Positions 2,956-35,504 of a stretch of 64,000 bases of DNA are shown piece by piece. Origin of the DNA: Streptomyces sp. 11x1 (GTDB taxonomy: Bacteria > Actinomycetota > Actinomycetes > Streptomycetales > Streptomycetaceae); NCBI RefSeq assembly GCF_032598905.1, contig NZ_CP122458.1, forward strand, positions 2,170,001 to 2,234,000, read 5' to 3'. A program made the position numbers and the translations under genes. The number at the start of each line of letters is the position of its first letter. Position 1 is the first letter of the stretch. The notes under the pieces are model-generated. The model saw only the letters and a list, made by a program, of their open reading frames with translations, did no database searches and was not told where the DNA came from.

Positions 2956-3330
2956 ATGAACGTCACTCTCTGGATCATCGCGGGCCTGCTCGCGGCCGCC
3001 TTCCTCGCCGCCGGCCTGATGAAGACCGCCCAGTCCAAGGAGAAGCTGTCGGCCTCCGGCATGACGTGGGTCGACTCCTTCTCCCCGGGCATGGTGAAGA
3101 CCATCGGCGCGCTGGAGGCCCTGGGCGCCATCGGACTGATCCTTCCGGCGCTCCTCGACATGGCCACGGTGTTCGTCCCGCTCGCGGCGACCGGTCTCGC
3201 CGTCACGATGCTCGGCGCGGTCGTCTTCCACCTCCGCCGGGGCGAGACCAAGGAGACGGCACCGAGCCTGGTGCTGCTGGTCCTGGCGATCGTGGTGGCC
3301 TGGGGCCGGTTCGGGCCGTACGCGTTCTGA
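2956..3330 (+). CDS. DoxX family membrane protein
   Basis: The 124-residue protein has about four membrane helices (for example WIIAGLLAAAFLAAGLMK at the N-terminus and LVLLVLAIVVAWGRF at the C-terminus) and the DoxX-like pattern of a lysine/glutamine loop followed by GALEALGAIGLILP. GAGGAAG lies at a good distance before the ATG. DoxX-like proteins are inner-membrane proteins often tied to thiol or quinone stress, but no biochemical role is firmly known for this branch. Pairing with a divergent MarR regulator suggests induction by a small reactive or aromatic molecule. Confidence 0.88.
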   Translation: MNVTLWIIAGLLAAAFLAAGLMKTAQSKEKLSASGMTWVDSFSPGMVKTIGALEALGAIGLILPALLDMATVFVPLAATGLAVTMLGAVVFHLRRGETKETAPSLVLLVLAIVVAWGRFGPYAF

Positions 3331-30411: not shown

Positions 30412-30930
30412 TCACATTCCCGTCCGCCCCGCGACGCCCGGCACGCCCTCCAGACCGAGGAGGAGACGCTTGCGGTCGAGGCCGCCGGCGTAGCCGGTGA
30501 GGGTGCCGTCCGAGCCGATCACCCGGTGGCAGGGGCGGACGATGAGGAGGGGGTTCGCGCCGATCGCGCCGCCCACGGCCCGCACGGCCGCGCGGGGTGC
30601 GCCGATCCGGGCGGCGACGGCCCCGTACGTGATGGTCGCGCCGTAGGGGACGTCGTCGAGCGCGGCCCAGACCCGGCGCCGGAACTCGGTGCCTTCCCCG
30701 CGCAACTCCAGCTGGAATTCCTTCCGCTCACCGGCGAAGTAGGCGGCGAGCTGTTCCTCGGCCGCCCGGAAGGGGGCCGGGTCGCGCAGCCAGCCCGGCA
30801 GCGGGACCCTGCCGCCCTTCTGCTCCGGTACGGAGAGGGAGGTGAGGGCGCCGGACTCGTCGGCGGTGAGGAGGAGTCGCCCGACGGGACTGTCGACGAC
30901 GGTGTAGTAGGTCCGCTGCTCGGTGCTCAC
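30412..30930 (-). CDS. ogt: methylated-DNA-[protein]-cysteine S-methyltransferase
   Basis: The 172-residue protein is an O6-alkylguanine-DNA alkyltransferase. The acceptor cysteine lies in IVRPCHRVIGSDGTLTGYAG near residue 140, and the DNA-binding helix (TITYGAVAARIGAPRAAVRA) precedes it. It transfers alkyl groups from guanine O6 to itself. Its GTG overlaps the stop of the upstream ada-alkA gene (GTGA), so the two form an adaptive-response operon. Confidence 0.95.
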   Translation of the reverse strand: MSTEQRTYYTVVDSPVGRLLLTADESGALTSLSVPEQKGGRVPLPGWLRDPAPFRAAEEQLAAYFAGERKEFQLELRGEGTEFRRRVWAALDDVPYGATITYGAVAARIGAPRAAVRAVGGAIGANPLLIVRPCHRVIGSDGTLTGYAGGLDRKRLLLGLEGVPGVAGRTGM

Positions 30931-32303
30931 GACTGATCTCCCGGTTCCTGTGTCCGAAGATGTCTGAGGGCGTACGACCGCCAGGGCCGCCAGGTGTCCG
31001 GCACGGTCTCGCCCGGGGGTCCCACGTCGGGGTCGCCGAGCGCGCGGGTGCGGATCACGGCGGCGGTACGGGCGTCCAGGCCCGGCAGCGCGAGCAGGGC
31101 CGTCGCGGCGGCGTCCCGGTCGGCGCCGACGTCGAGGCGGCAGGTGCCGTCGGTGAGGGCGGTGGCGAGGGCGCCGAGCGGACCGCCCGCGTCGGCCAGT
31201 GCCGCGGGTTCGGGGAACAGGTGCGTCAGCGTCCCCTGCGGGGCGTCCAGCCGCTTGCCGTACGCCTGTACGAGCGGTGCCGCATCGGCGTGGCCCACGA
31301 GCGCGCGTACGGCGTACTCCTCCGGGTCGGCCGTGCCCGGCGAGCGCAGCCCCGGTCTGGCGGCGACGAGCGGGGCGAGGCGGGGGTCCTCGCCGAGGCG
31401 CTCGTCCACGGCGTACGGGTCGGCGTCCAGGTCGAACAGCCGCCGCAGCCGCTGCACGGCGGTGGTGAGGTCGCGGGGGTCGGTGAGATGGAGCCGGGCG
31501 TCGAGCCAGCCGCCGGAACGGCCGGTGGGGCGGCCCCCCGGTCGTTCGTCGACCTCGGCGATCCCGGTGCCGTACGGGAGACGGAGGGTGCGCCGGTACG
31601 TGCGGTGGCCTGGTTCGCCGGTCGTCTCCTCGACGCCGGTGACGGCTTCGGCGGCCAGGACGTCAAAGAGGGCGGTGGACTGGTACGGGCCCCGGTACGC
31701 GAGCCGGAGCGGTATTCCGGCCGTCCGCGGGCCGGCGGGCCTCCGGGGTGCGCCGGCGCGCAGGGCGCTGGGTGTCATGGCGTAGACCGCCCTGATCGTG
31801 TCGTTGAACTGGCGCACGCTGGCGAAGCCGGACGCGAAGGCGATCTCGGTGACCGGGAGGGTGGTGGTCCGCAGCAGGACGCGGGCGGTGTGCGCCCGCT
31901 GGGCGCGGGCCAGGGCGACGGGCCCGGCGCCGACCTCGGCGGTGAGCTGCCGCTGGACCTGCCGTGCGCTGTAGCCCAGCCGCACGGCCAGCCCGGCGAC
32001 GCCCTCCCGGTCCACGACGCCGTCCCCGATGAGCCGCATGGCGCGGCCCACCGAGTCCGCGCGCACGTTCCACTCGGCCGAACCGGGCACGGCGTCCGGC
32101 CGGCAGCGTCGGCAGGCACGGAATCCGGCGGCCTGCGCGGCGGCCGCGGTCGCGTAGAAGCGGACGTTCTCCCGTTTCGGCGTCACCGCCGGGCAGCTCG
32201 GCCGGCAGTAGATCCCGGTCGTCCCGACGGCGAAGAAGAACTCCCCGTCGAACCGGCCGTCCCTGCTCCGCACGGCCTCGTACCTGGTGTCTTCGTCCTT
32301 CAT
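30927..32303 (-). CDS. Ada-AlkA fusion (methyl-sensing AraC regulator with divergent glycosylase domain)
   Basis: The 458-residue protein has an Ada zinc domain (residues 10-85: TGIYCRPSCPAVTPKRENV and ACRRCRPDAVPG, whose cysteines include the methyl-phosphotriester acceptor). An AraC-type HTH follows (about 100-185: RLGYSARQVQRQLTAEVGA; EIAFASGFASVRQFNDTIRA), then an AlkA-like region (200-458). In the last part the stretch between RALGDPD and WRPWRSYALRHL is very short, and the usual helix-hairpin-helix glycine motif reads LPGLDARTA. The catalytic aspartate segment therefore seems missing. It is probably the methylation-sensing activator of itself and ogt. Confidence 0.88.
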   Translation of the reverse strand: MKDEDTRYEAVRSRDGRFDGEFFFAVGTTGIYCRPSCPAVTPKRENVRFYATAAAAQAAGFRACRRCRPDAVPGSAEWNVRADSVGRAMRLIGDGVVDREGVAGLAVRLGYSARQVQRQLTAEVGAGPVALARAQRAHTARVLLRTTTLPVTEIAFASGFASVRQFNDTIRAVYAMTPSALRAGAPRRPAGPRTAGIPLRLAYRGPYQSTALFDVLAAEAVTGVEETTGEPGHRTYRRTLRLPYGTGIAEVDERPGGRPTGRSGGWLDARLHLTDPRDLTTAVQRLRRLFDLDADPYAVDERLGEDPRLAPLVAARPGLRSPGTADPEEYAVRALVGHADAAPLVQAYGKRLDAPQGTLTHLFPEPAALADAGGPLGALATALTDGTCRLDVGADRDAAATALLALPGLDARTAAVIRTRALGDPDVGPPGETVPDTWRPWRSYALRHLRTQEPGDQS

Positions 32304-32355
32304 GCCCTCAAGTGTCGACGACGCGCACGCGCCGGGCTGGCGAATTTCGGACACG

Positions 32356-32395
32356 GCGCTGTTCCCCGCGCCCAAGGGGGCGCGGGGAACAGCGC
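32356..32395. repeat. perfect palindromic element, copy 3 of the interspersed repeat
   Basis: GCGCTGTTCCCCGCGCCC (32356-32373) pairs perfectly with 32378-32395 across AAGG. The following bases, GATCAGCCCCCACTCACCCG, are shared with the other copies. It lies downstream of rsgA and upstream of the ada-alkA start, so it may also terminate rsgA transcription. Confidence 0.9.
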
Positions 32396-32425
32396 GATCA
32401 GCCCCCACTCACCCGCGGCCGAAGA

Positions 32426-33544
32426 TCAGCGGTGCCCACCCCTCTTCGCCTCCATCGCCGCGCGCCCCTGCGCACCCCGCCGCTTCCACTCCTTGCGGAT
32501 CTCCGCCCGCAGCCGCGCGTCGCTCTTGGCGACGATGCGCTGATTCTCGCGGAGCAGCTTGCGGTAGCTGTCGAGCCGCCGCTCGGGCAGTTCACCGGAC
32601 TCGACGGCGCCGAGGACCGCGCAGCCGGGCTCGGCGAGGTGCGCGCAGTCGTGGAAGCGGCAGTCCGCGGCCAGTTCCTCGATCTCGGCGAAGACCTGCC
32701 CGACCCCGGTCTCGGCGTCCCAGAGGCCGACCCCGCGCAGTCCGGGGGTGTCGATGAGGACTCCGCCGCCGGGCAGGGCGAGCAGGTTGCGGGTGGTCGT
32801 GGTGTGCCGTCCCTTGCCGTCCACGTCGCGGGTGGCCTGGACGTCCATGACGTCGTCGCCGAGCAGGGCGTTGGCGAGGGTCGACTTGCCGGCGCCGGAC
32901 TGTCCGAGGAGCACGGAGGTGCCGCCGGAGATCACCGCCGCTAGGACGTCGAGGCCCTCGCCGTGGGTGGAGCTGACCGTCAGCACGGGAACGCCGGGCG
33001 CGGTGGTCTCCACGTCCTGCACGAGGTGCCCCAGTGTGACGGCGTCCGGCACGAGGTCGGCCTTGGTGAGCACGACCACGGGCTGGGCCCCGGACTCCCA
33101 GGCCAGCGCGAGGAACCGTTCGACACGGCCGAGGTCGAGTTCCACGGCGAGCGACACCGCGACGACCGCGTGGTCGACGTTGGCGGCGAGGATCTGTCCC
33201 TCGGCGCGCTTGGAGGAGGTGGAGCGGACGAAGGCGCTGCGGCGCGGCAGGTACGTGCGGACGTACCGGGGGTCGCCCGCGGGTTCCACGGCGACCCAGT
33301 CGCCCGTGCAGACGACCCGCATGGGGTCGTGGGGGGTGACGAACGCCGTGTCGGCCCGCAGCGGACCGTCCGCGGTGACGACGTCGCACTGCCCGCGGTC
33401 GACACGCACGACCCGCCCGGCGATCAGGCCCTCGGCGTCGTACGGGGCGAAGGCGTCCGCCCAGGAGGTGTCCCAGCCGTACGGGACGAGGGGGTGGGAG
33501 GAGGAGGACGACAGGGACGAGCCCGGGAAAGAGGAGAGAGACAA
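32426..33544 (-). CDS. rsgA: ribosome small-subunit-dependent GTPase A (RsgA/YjeQ) paralogue
   Basis: The 372-residue product has an OB-fold segment (RVVRVDRGQCDVVTADGPLR), the circularly permuted GTPase with VVVLTKADLV (G4), SVLLGQSGAGKSTLANALLG (G1) and VLIDTPGLRGVGL (G3), and a C-terminal zinc motif (CRFHDCAHLAEPGCAV). RsgA proteins act in late 30S subunit assembly. No ATG or GTG precedes the conserved part; TTG at 33542-33544 has GAAGGG at a suitable distance. That Shine-Dalgarno can pair with the start codon region. A short ORF with a strong ribosome-binding site lies upstream. Confidence 0.88.
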   Translation of the reverse strand: MSLSSFPGSSLSSSSSHPLVPYGWDTSWADAFAPYDAEGLIAGRVVRVDRGQCDVVTADGPLRADTAFVTPHDPMRVVCTGDWVAVEPAGDPRYVRTYLPRRSAFVRSTSSKRAEGQILAANVDHAVVAVSLAVELDLGRVERFLALAWESGAQPVVVLTKADLVPDAVTLGHLVQDVETTAPGVPVLTVSSTHGEGLDVLAAVISGGTSVLLGQSGAGKSTLANALLGDDVMDVQATRDVDGKGRHTTTTRNLLALPGGGVLIDTPGLRGVGLWDAETGVGQVFAEIEELAADCRFHDCAHLAEPGCAVLGAVESGELPERRLDSYRKLLRENQRIVAKSDARLRAEIRKEWKRRGAQGRAAMEAKRGGHR

Positions 33545-33555
33545 GGGTGACCCTT
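33543..33555 (-). promoter_or_regulatory. hairpin sequestering the rsgA Shine-Dalgarno and start codon
   Basis: AAGGGTGACCCTT (plus strand) is a perfect dyad. In the mRNA the GAAGGG ribosome-binding site pairs with CCCTT, which includes part of the TTG start. A second perfect palindrome, GCGTCCGCGGACGC (33574-33587), lies between it and the leader ORF stop. Confidence 0.55.
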
Positions 33556-33602
33556 CACAGGGGTGGCCCGGCGGCGTCCGCGGACGCGAGAGAAGAGAGA
33601 AG

Positions 33603-33674
33603 TCAGCCGGCGGCCACGGAGGTGGACTGGATGGATTCCTGGATGCGGGTAGCGCCCATCGCAGTGACAGCCAT
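33603..33674 (-). CDS. 23-residue leader peptide ORF upstream of rsgA
   Basis: The ATG at 33672-33674 opens MAVTAMGATRIQESIQ and continues seven more residues to TGA at 33603-33605. CAGGAGGTG lies seven bases before the ATG and is one of the best Shine-Dalgarno matches in the window. It ends 58 bases before the rsgA TTG. No homologue is recognised. The strong initiation signal and its place in a structured leader suggest a regulatory upstream ORF rather than a working small protein, but both remain possible. Confidence 0.6.
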   Translation of the reverse strand: MAVTAMGATRIQESIQSTSVAAG

Positions 33675-33743
33675 CGGTCGACACCTCCTGTCTCACTCGT
33701 TGTGGCGACGGCGGCCGGAACAGCCGCCGTGCTCGGTGATCTC

Positions 33744-33774
33744 ACCCTAGCGGGGGCCCGTGGGCCCCCGTCAA
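33744..33774 (-). promoter_or_regulatory. rsgA promoter with MerR-type 19-bp dyad spacer
   Basis: On the minus strand TTGACG (33769-33774) and TAGGGT (33744-33749) are 19 bp apart. The spacer is almost wholly the dyad GGGGGCCC/GGGCCCCC (33752-33769). A 19-20 bp spacer filled by a dyad is the architecture activated by MerR-family proteins. A leader hairpin with 8-bp arms follows at 33708-33730. Confidence 0.6.
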
Positions 33775-33821
33775 TCGAATTTCCGCGCCGCGTTCCGTGC
33801 CTCGTGCGTCGCGTTCCGCGC

Positions 33822-35354
33822 TCAGCCCGCCCGGTCGCACTTCTTCCCGTTGAGCGTGAAGTCCACGGGGGCGGGGTTGTCGTAGCCCTCCCAGATTCCG
33901 AGGAAGCCGACGCCGAAGGTGCCGCCGGCGGCGACGGTCTTGTTGTAGTCGGCGGAGGTGGCGGTGACCTTGGTGCCCTCCTGGTCGAAGGTGCCGTCCC
34001 ACATCTGGGTGACGCGCTGGTCGGCCGCGTAGGTCCAGGCGATGTGCCAGCCGTCGAGGGCCTCGGTGGAGGTGACGGTGACGGTGCCCTGGAAGCCGCC
34101 GGGCCATTCGTTGACGACCTGGTAGCGGACGTGGCAGGTGGCCTCGGAGGACTTGCCGGGGTCCACGGGCTGATGGGTGACCCGGGCGGGCGTCGAGGCG
34201 TCGCCCTGGGGTTCCTCGTTGCTGTTGCCGCCGCCCTTGCCCTCGCCCTTCTCGTCGTCCGTGTCGCCGGAACCGGTCTCGCCGGGCCGCGACGTGCTCT
34301 GCAGCTCCGACGACCCGCCGTCGGACGGGGCGCCGGTCACCGGGAACCTCGGGTCCTGCTGCACCACCGACGAGTCCCGGGCGGACGAGCCCTCGGCGAC
34401 GGTCTCGTCGTCGCCGAACGGCATGAGGGAGACCGCGAGCGCCAGCAAGGATACGAGGCCGGCTCCGACGAGCACCCCGTTGCGGCTGAACCGGGGCTTC
34501 GCCTCCCTGCCCGGTGAGAGTCCCCGGTCGGTGCCGGTGGAGTCCGCGCGCCCGGGGAGCAGTCCGGCATCGGCAGCGCGGCGGCGGCGCTCCAGGTAGG
34601 CGAGTCCGCTCCAGCCGATCACACCGTTGGCGAGGGCGGCGGGCAGTCCGCCGCCGTGCAGGCCGAGGCAGGCCGCGGCCTCGGCGCACTGCACGCAGGT
34701 GGCGAGGTGGCGGGAGAGGTCCTCGGGGGTGTCGGTGCCGGGCGAGCGGGTGACCGCGTCCAGCAGCCGGGCGTAGGTGCGGCAGTCGGCGTGCAGGGGC
34801 GCGTCGAGCTGACCGCGGTGGCAGCGGTCCCGGAACAGCGCCCGCACCTGGTCGAGTTCGGTGCTCGCGACCGCCGGGTCGAGGCCGAGCCGGCGGGCCA
34901 CCGAGCCCAGCGGCAGCGACTCGACCTCGGCGAGCCACAGCAGGGCCGCGTCTGGTTCCTGCATGTCCCGCAGGGCACGCAGGGCGAGAGGCCGGTACAG
35001 CGGCGGGCCGGTGTACCGGGCGGCCTTGTCCGAGTTGAGCCAGAGGCGCAGCTCGGGGTCGAGCCGGTGGCCCTGGCCGCCCGCCTCCCAGGCGGCGGCG
35101 CTGGTCCTGACCCAGGTCAGGAGGAACGGTATTCGAGGCAGGCGCAGGGCACGCCGACCGGCACCGCGGTCGGCCCCCGCCTCGTGCTCCAGGGCGTGTG
35201 CCTCGTGCATGCCGTTCGTGAAGGCCTCGGTGGCCAGTTGGGTCGCCGCGGCCGACCCGGACGTGCACAGGTCGGCGTACGACAGGACCGCGTCCCAGCA
35301 CTCCGAGAACAGCGCGGCCTCGGCGGCGTCCTGGGGCTTCGGCAGGTCGGGCAT
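33822..35354 (-). CDS. sigma-like / zinc-finger anti-sigma / CBM2 transmembrane fusion protein
   Basis: The 510-residue protein combines a sigma-like region (1-180, with the HTH-like LPLGSVARRLGLDPAVASTE), a zinc-binding anti-sigma motif HLATCVQC (H216, C220, C223), one membrane helix (292-312, VLVGAGLVSLLALAVSLMPF), an acidic Ser/Gly linker (about 315-400) and a C-terminal cellulose-binding module of family 2 (VRYQVVNEWPGGFQGTVTVT to NGKKC). The N-terminus would be cytosolic and the CBM outside, so it looks like a polysaccharide-sensing signal protein. GCAGGAGAC precedes the ATG at 35354. Confidence 0.85.
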   Translation of the reverse strand: MPDLPKPQDAAEAALFSECWDAVLSYADLCTSGSAAATQLATEAFTNGMHEAHALEHEAGADRGAGRRALRLPRIPFLLTWVRTSAAAWEAGGQGHRLDPELRLWLNSDKAARYTGPPLYRPLALRALRDMQEPDAALLWLAEVESLPLGSVARRLGLDPAVASTELDQVRALFRDRCHRGQLDAPLHADCRTYARLLDAVTRSPGTDTPEDLSRHLATCVQCAEAAACLGLHGGGLPAALANGVIGWSGLAYLERRRRAADAGLLPGRADSTGTDRGLSPGREAKPRFSRNGVLVGAGLVSLLALAVSLMPFGDDETVAEGSSARDSSVVQQDPRFPVTGAPSDGGSSELQSTSRPGETGSGDTDDEKGEGKGGGNSNEEPQGDASTPARVTHQPVDPGKSSEATCHVRYQVVNEWPGGFQGTVTVTSTEALDGWHIAWTYAADQRVTQMWDGTFDQEGTKVTATSADYNKTVAAGGTFGVGFLGIWEGYDNPAPVDFTLNGKKCDRAG

Positions 35355-35504
35355 GGGTCTCCTGCATCCAACAGAGCGAGGGGGGAAGTGGGCAAAAGTA
35401 GTCAACTGCCCTTTAAATCCAAGGGAGTTGGGGGGACCACCTTGCGATGGCCCAGAGCTTTTCACGCTTCCCACACAACTGACAAGCTACGTCTTCAAAC
35501 GTGG

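Follow-up and report, generated by a model that had tools for sequence, protein, structure and literature searches.

A frame-conserved upstream ORF and a covarying helix before an rsgA paralogue in Streptomyces: a candidate translational attenuator

One way to understand the leader that precedes an rsgA paralogue in Streptomyces sp. 11x1 is as a ribosome-mediated translational attenuator, in which efficient translation of a short upstream ORF (uORF) would lower expression of a WblC-induced gene. We hold this reading with slightly better than even confidence; the direction of the effect, the translation of the uORF and the inducing signal are what we infer in it. The window (the whole stretch of DNA that was analysed, 64,000 nucleotides) contains the gene and its leader on the minus strand. 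If the reading is right, the leader is a concrete, family-wide candidate for a second layer of control, laid over WblC transcription at the gene of a ribosome-assembly GTPase. It also offers a uORF that preserves its frame and RNA pairing despite a drifting peptide; because the peptide drifts, searches for regulatory uORFs that depend on peptide conservation could overlook distant relatives. The first-pass annotation of this DNA had likened the leader to the ribosome-stalling attenuators of antibiotic-resistance genes. From that comparison a selected uORF, alternative structures at the rsgA Shine-Dalgarno sequence (SD) and a link to antibiotic or ribosome stress survive; the stalling peptide does not.

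The 23-codon ORF, MAVTAMGATRIQESIQSTSVAAG, occupies 33674-33603 (minus strand) and ends 58 nt 5' of the start of the rsgA paralogue; its SD, GGAGGTG, starts 14 nt 5' of the uORF ATG. The rsgA start is most likely the TTG at 33544, served by the SD GAAGGG, and transcription would begin near 33737. The features, given in window coordinates, are these:

33778..33783, minus strand: WblC/WhiB7 box GAAATT, 3 nt 5' of the -35, matching GAAAWY at 6/6 positions
33744..33774, minus strand: putative promoter, from sequence; -35 TTGACG, spacer of 19 nt, -10 TAGGGT
33708..33730, minus strand: 5' leader hairpin of the minimum-energy fold
33682..33688, minus strand: uORF SD GGAGGTG, 5' strand of helix P0; predicted partner 33618-33626
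33603..33674, minus strand: uORF, 23 codons and TGA, from relatives and frame conservation
33618..33626, minus strand: E, TCCACCTCC, an anti-SD-like stretch within the uORF and 3' strand of P0, from SD opening cost and shuffles
33606..33617, minus strand: F, GTGGCCGCCGGC, the four sense codons that precede the uORF stop and 5' strand of helix P1, from covariation with H
33574..33587, minus strand: P3 hairpin, GCGTCCGCGGACGC, of the minimum-energy fold; variable in sequence and missing from some relatives
33563..33572, minus strand: H, the box GCCGGGCCAC, 3' strand of P1; most relatives have one extra G
33551..33562, minus strand: CCCTGTGAAGGG, the rsgA SD GAAGGG with a sequestering partner 5' of the SD
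33542..33550, minus strand: K, TCACCC and the TTG start of rsgA, which can pair alternatively with the SD and, for the majority of relatives, with H
32426..33544, minus strand: rsgA paralogue, an RsgA GTPase (Pfam PF03193, E 2.1e-49; TIGR00157 above cut-off)

The short ORF with a strong SD that the first-pass annotation had placed before the rsgA paralogue is there, and it is no chance reading, since ORFs of 10-45 codons led by GGAGGTG and ATG occur at only two places in the window on both strands together, this uORF included; the chance of finding one in a random 120-nt interval is 0.002. Three hairpins had also been proposed. Those at 33730-33708 and 33587-33574 belong to the minimum-energy fold; the one at 33555-33543 exists as an alternative only. 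Within that fold of the leader, the CCCT immediately 5' of the rsgA SD is its partner; the hairpin at 33555-33543 (AAGGG with CCCTT) forms when the upstream RNA is omitted from the folding. The 223-nt leader is more stable than its shuffled versions (z -2.12; 4 of 200 equally stable), and inverted repeats resembling the 5' hairpin are seen by eye, uncounted, in several relatives. At gathering score, Rfam has no match in the window. Three features are absent from the first-pass annotation: the helix between the uORF end and the box 5' of the rsgA SD, the pairing of the uORF SD with the internal anti-SD-like stretch, and the WblC box.

Conservation was followed through widening sets of relatives. 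The near set comes from a scan of genome contigs, and 79 of these 80 relatives (the best 80 of 557 confirmed relatives of the window RsgA) carry a uORF at the homologous place. A family search gave an RsgA match in 121/121 genomes, the best E-value belonging to a distant copy in six of them (G192, G201, G207, G219, G229, G255). The far set consists of 80 diverged upstream regions that we chose from the matches of that search; with a filter followed by hand choice, 78 of the 80 have an SD-led uORF, 72 taken from the filtered list and 6 more overlapping the rsgA start, and in the remaining two (L090, L128) an ATG uORF is led by GGGGGTG, an SD outside the filter. At class level, the search found RsgA in 58 of 60 genomes, and in 17 of 29 upstream regions read from other Actinomycete families our selection of ORFs includes an SD-led uORF, where the background for the loosest start type is 5.0% per 120 nt and about 245 nt were searched. 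Some of the 12 misses seem by eye to lie inside the gene (for example L171, L179, L182). Where several ORFs passed the filter in the far and other-family sets, the one with a strong SD was chosen; the counts for these sets are therefore partly made by hand.

The layout is not constant. In 7 of the 12 leaders fetched from genus g3 (L130, L133, L134, L135, L138, L139, L141) the uORF crosses the hairpin of the rsgA SD and has its stop beyond the rsgA start, another arrangement of the same leader; elsewhere it overlaps the rsgA start in L118, L121, L122, L124, L125 and L129, and in L109 its stop lies 5 nt before the rsgA TTG. One leader, L033 (350 nt before position 3001), has lost the uORF SD and ATG and kept the rest of the frame, which is open from a GTG shortly after the -10; this copy is perhaps leaderless, and makes a natural test case.

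Selection on the uORF can be read from what varies and what does not. The F motif, searched for regardless of frame in 152 leaders, was found in 119; its distance from the ATG takes five lengths and is a multiple of 3 in all 119, and the triplet that follows it is TGA in 117. Within the 55 distinct 72-nt uORFs among the 80 rows, mean column entropy at codon positions 1, 2 and 3 is 0.53, 0.49 and 0.30. The third position is thus the most conserved, which speaks against selection on the peptide, as that would leave the third position freest. Translation is not called into question by this reversed periodicity, since the frame survives changes of length in 119/119. Outside the near relatives, the uORF peptides share little past the first residues (by eye), and with divergent peptides and reversed entropy periodicity, no conserved arrest peptide was found among the uORFs. 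Judged by these comparisons, the uORF frame is under selection and the peptide is not; a frame that is kept over a divergent peptide points to a uORF read by ribosomes for its RNA rather than for its product. The first-pass annotation had looked to conservation and codon periodicity for support: frame and SD are indeed kept in relatives, and the periodicity runs the wrong way for peptide selection.

Products hidden in the other frames were considered and rejected. A candidate in frame +2 (D-G-C-x-C...R-C-P-H-P) meets an internal stop in 7 of the 55 distinct uORFs; one in the rsgA frame (+1) meets a stop in 23 of the 55.

The pairing of the uORF end with the box, helix P1, has the strongest comparative record. 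Pairing tests used 129 leaders, 31 of 160 (the window, 79 near and 80 far) having been dropped beforehand and L033 removed earlier. F is typically GTGGCCACCGGC and H typically GCCGGGGCCAC, with H immediately before the rsgA SD. When each leader is given its best register, the six outer pairs are complete in 106 leaders; 16 have five and 7 have at most four. With the register fixed, 120 leaders provide 720 cells, of which 695 pair; nine rows are omitted from this count, the poorly pairing L156 and L158 among them. None of 1000 partner shuffles reaches 695 (their mean is 680.9 and their maximum 691), and versions with the register shifted score 246-370. Matched against swapped partners, z is -6.2; shuffles and swaps alike leave the relatedness among leaders in place. 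The window copy has 9.8 expected F:H pairs.

Individual exchanges follow the helix. A GTC in F, in place of GCC, can be accompanied by GGGACC in the box, and a GCG in place of GTG by CGC. On a tree of 79 rsgA genes (FastTree, midpoint root, parsimony) the box changed from G to A four times, always with U in F and three times on the same branch as the F change; the one box reversal falls on a branch where F returned to C; and three changes of F from U to C, at the other position, occur where the box has G. Six of nine changes of F from C to U took place without a box change on that branch, a G-U pair remaining. Box A stands opposite C of F in 7 of the 129 rows, a diverged group with uORFs ending CCGGCC. 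Taken together, covariation supports P1. RNAalifold, applied to a MAFFT alignment of 79 leaders, gives a partial P1 and pairs the rsgA SD with K, not upstream. A small hairpin within the uORF end (CCAC:GTGG), which would compete with P1, has a swap z of -2.9. We do not keep a clean three-way covariation of F, H and K: K has U in 13 of 14 rows with box A opposite U of F, and, as U in F accompanies U in K even where the box has G, relatedness may account for the pattern.

A second predicted helix, P0, would close the uORF SD with E; its case is computational. When E is part of the folded RNA, the uORF SD becomes harder to open: the mean cost climbs from 4.2 to 12.1 kcal/mol over 79 near leaders and from 3.7 to 10.7 kcal/mol over 50 far ones. 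The cost lies above the dinucleotide-shuffle mean in 30/30 near (a random draw from the 79), 47/50 far, 15/17 other-family and 16/22 remaining leaders, with modest mean z values of 2.2, 1.6, 1.0 and 0.7, respectively. Of 129 uORFs, 93 contain CACCTC; 87 of these share a single frame for it, and six (L150-L152, L155-L157) carry it in another. When partners are exchanged between loci, pairing suffers little (z -3.4 for the whole helix, -0.7 for its ATG portion), so that P0 rests on energy and hardly on covariation.

At the rsgA SD itself there are two choices of partner: a CCCTT upstream, or a CCCTT downstream that reaches into the start codon. This weak SD is paired in every state computed. To model a ribosome that has reached the uORF stop, the RNA through that stop was removed; for the H:K folding, the ribosome edge was shifted where the linker is short, to keep H in the RNA. 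On this model, a ribosome at the stop gives H:K at least 3 expected pairs in 100 of 129 leaders; the same number of pairs is reached in 5 leaders when the ribosome is early and in 2 when there is none. For near leaders, the energy needed to open the rsgA SD averages 5.5 kcal/mol with an early ribosome, 7.2 with one at the stop and 6.3 with no ribosome; for far leaders the values are 6.0, 7.5 and 6.2 kcal/mol. The stop value exceeds the early value in 69/79 near and 44/50 far leaders, by an average of 1.5-1.7 kcal/mol, which is close to the error of the energy model. The competing lock and the size of its effect are thus computed predictions. The window copy, whose box is one G shorter, has just 0.76 expected H:K pairs and costs of 4.4 (none), 5.45 (early) and 5.64 (stop), an early-to-stop difference of 0.2 kcal/mol: with the shorter G run, P1 and P0 are predicted to be present and the computed switch is weak.

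Transcription of the gene is likely to be under WblC. An excerpt of PMC7157823 places the binding of WblC at GAAAWY, 3 nt 5' of the -35, and lists RsgA/EngC SCO6149 among the WblC-activated genes of S. coelicolor, with SCO5211 as its paralogue. The window promoter, GAAATT-CGA-TTGACG, 19 nt, TAGGGT, agrees with GAAAWY at 6/6 positions; a generic sigma-70 scan, with a spacer limit of 16-18 nt, found no promoter at 33744..33774. With a strict TTGAC, which 50 of 80 near leaders have, the box scores at least 4 in 41 of 80 near leaders against 2 of 72 far ones, and in 0.4% of base-shuffled sequences; with a relaxed -35 the same score is reached in 49/80 near and 22/80 far leaders, and the null rises to 1.8%. 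As few far leaders have the box, WblC control may not extend to all the diverged leaders. On promoter sequence, the window rsgA is likely a member of the WblC regulon, and the link to antibiotic or ribosome stress drawn by the first-pass annotation gains its footing from the WblC/WhiB7 box and from the listing of SCO6149 in that excerpt (PMC7157823).

The second RsgA of the same genome (L002), the housekeeping copy, is 32% identical to the window RsgA. It belongs to the RsgA family as the window gene does, but is located directly behind an aroA-like ORF (aroA by eye), and is therefore without a leader of this kind. SCO5211 presumably adjoins aroA, in agreement with the position of this second copy. 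On that ground we assign the window gene to the SCO6149 type and infer that it is the SCO6149 orthologue.

The attenuator we propose would work as follows: under translation stress, WblC would activate rsgA transcription; a ribosome completing the uORF would cover F and leave H free; in most relatives, free H and K would pair around the CCCTT:AAGGG stem and thereby lock both the SD and the start of rsgA; if uORF translation were blocked early or not begun, F:H (P1) would form, the outer lock would be prevented and rsgA translation would go up. E, once transcribed, would close the uORF SD (P0), so that an unused leader would settle as P0 and P1 together. One mechanism cannot hold everywhere, since in 7 of 12 g3 leaders, and in some others, the uORF reaches or passes the rsgA start.

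Those same leaders feed the chief rival, positive coupling, to which we give a minority but serious share of belief. Here uORF ribosomes would open the hairpin that covers the weak rsgA SD, or re-initiate at the nearby TTG; rsgA would be expressed only when the uORF is translated, and removal of the uORF start would have an effect opposite to that expected of the attenuator. A uORF that runs into rsgA in 7 of 12 g3 leaders and seven others, and a weak rsgA SD paired in every computed state, suit coupling well, but it gives the covarying F:H helix no role, and a ribosome at the stop is predicted to close the rsgA SD more, not less. Transcription attenuation as in wblC is a less probable account, in which the SD hairpin, or Rho acting on the pyrimidine-rich linker, would end transcription unless uORF translation is disturbed. 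It has precedents: excerpts of PMC11550727 and PMC12421871 ascribe terminators and anti-terminators to the wblC and are5sc/tiaA leaders, and one of PMC8079986 describes Streptomyces attenuators that have no clear U tract; moreover, the first 25 nt past the uORF stop average 69% pyrimidine over 129 leaders. However, a consensus scan of the window, which would miss terminators without a U tract, picked out a single site, a stem of 5 pairs at the end of the uORF, and nothing terminator-like from the box to rsgA, and the conserved hairpin contains exactly the SD and the start codon. In L093, L094, L095, L098, L104 and similar leaders, the rsgA frame after the TTG opens with a C/U-rich run (TTGTCTTTCTCTTTTC or alike); this run and the pyrimidine-rich linker could be either an unstructured spacer or a Rho site.

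A classical drug-induced stalling peptide in the uORF, of the erm or cat type, was the first-pass reading, and the strong SD, the short peptide and an antibiotic-response gene all fit it. We think it very improbable. The peptides diverge widely, third codon positions are the most conserved, the frame of CACCTC varies, and a stall near the uORF end would, by computation, favour the locked form. In erm and cat leaders a drug-stalled leader ribosome is required to open the main-gene SD; the present leader shares with them a leader ORF and a sequestered main-gene SD, but its peptide is not conserved and its predicted sign would be opposite.

A bolder perspective, which we consider unlikely though worth stating, supposes that the leader is a sensor of ribosome supply, placed in a gene whose product matures the 30S subunit. 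An internal copy of the 16S rRNA anti-SD (CACCUCC) would sequester the uORF SD; initiation at the uORF would report the speed with which free mature 30S outcompetes this copy during transcription; and the P1 readout would set RsgA output, giving feedback between 30S supply and 30S maturation. If true, the feedback loop would be old in Actinomycetes and independent of the peptide sequence.

Among known systems, the whiB7/wblC attenuator is alike in having a leader uORF before a translation-stress gene and in its sign: complete translation of that uORF lowers the downstream gene, and disturbed translation raises it, according to an excerpt of PMC11550727. There, the wblC leader carries a Rho-independent terminator, whereas in the rsgA leader the competing structure would cover SD and start; the target here, furthermore, is a likely member of the WblC regulon, not wblC itself. 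The are5sc and tiaA leaders of S. coelicolor, as an excerpt of PMC12421871 presents them, are likewise antibiotic-response leaders with uORFs and alternative structures; they differ in their very short uORFs (MLV, MVGDDDISG) and predicted terminator and anti-terminator, and toeprinting showed drug-induced stalling at the start codon. In the open-licence literature, subscription journals being mostly outside the search, we found no report of this rsgA leader; the one paper there that contains both RsgA and uORF is PMC7157823, and the uORF of its excerpt is that of wblC.

Directly 3' of rsgA, 30930-32408 (minus strand) encodes an Ada metal-binding domain and an AraC-type helix-turn-helix fused to an AlkA N-terminal domain. 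On the other side, 33825-35474 (minus strand) encodes a 550-aa protein whose sole Pfam match is a C-terminal cellulose-binding CBM_2; its long N-terminal part has no matched family, a hydrophobic segment lies between (by eye), and it is possibly a membrane protein that displays the carbohydrate-binding domain outside.
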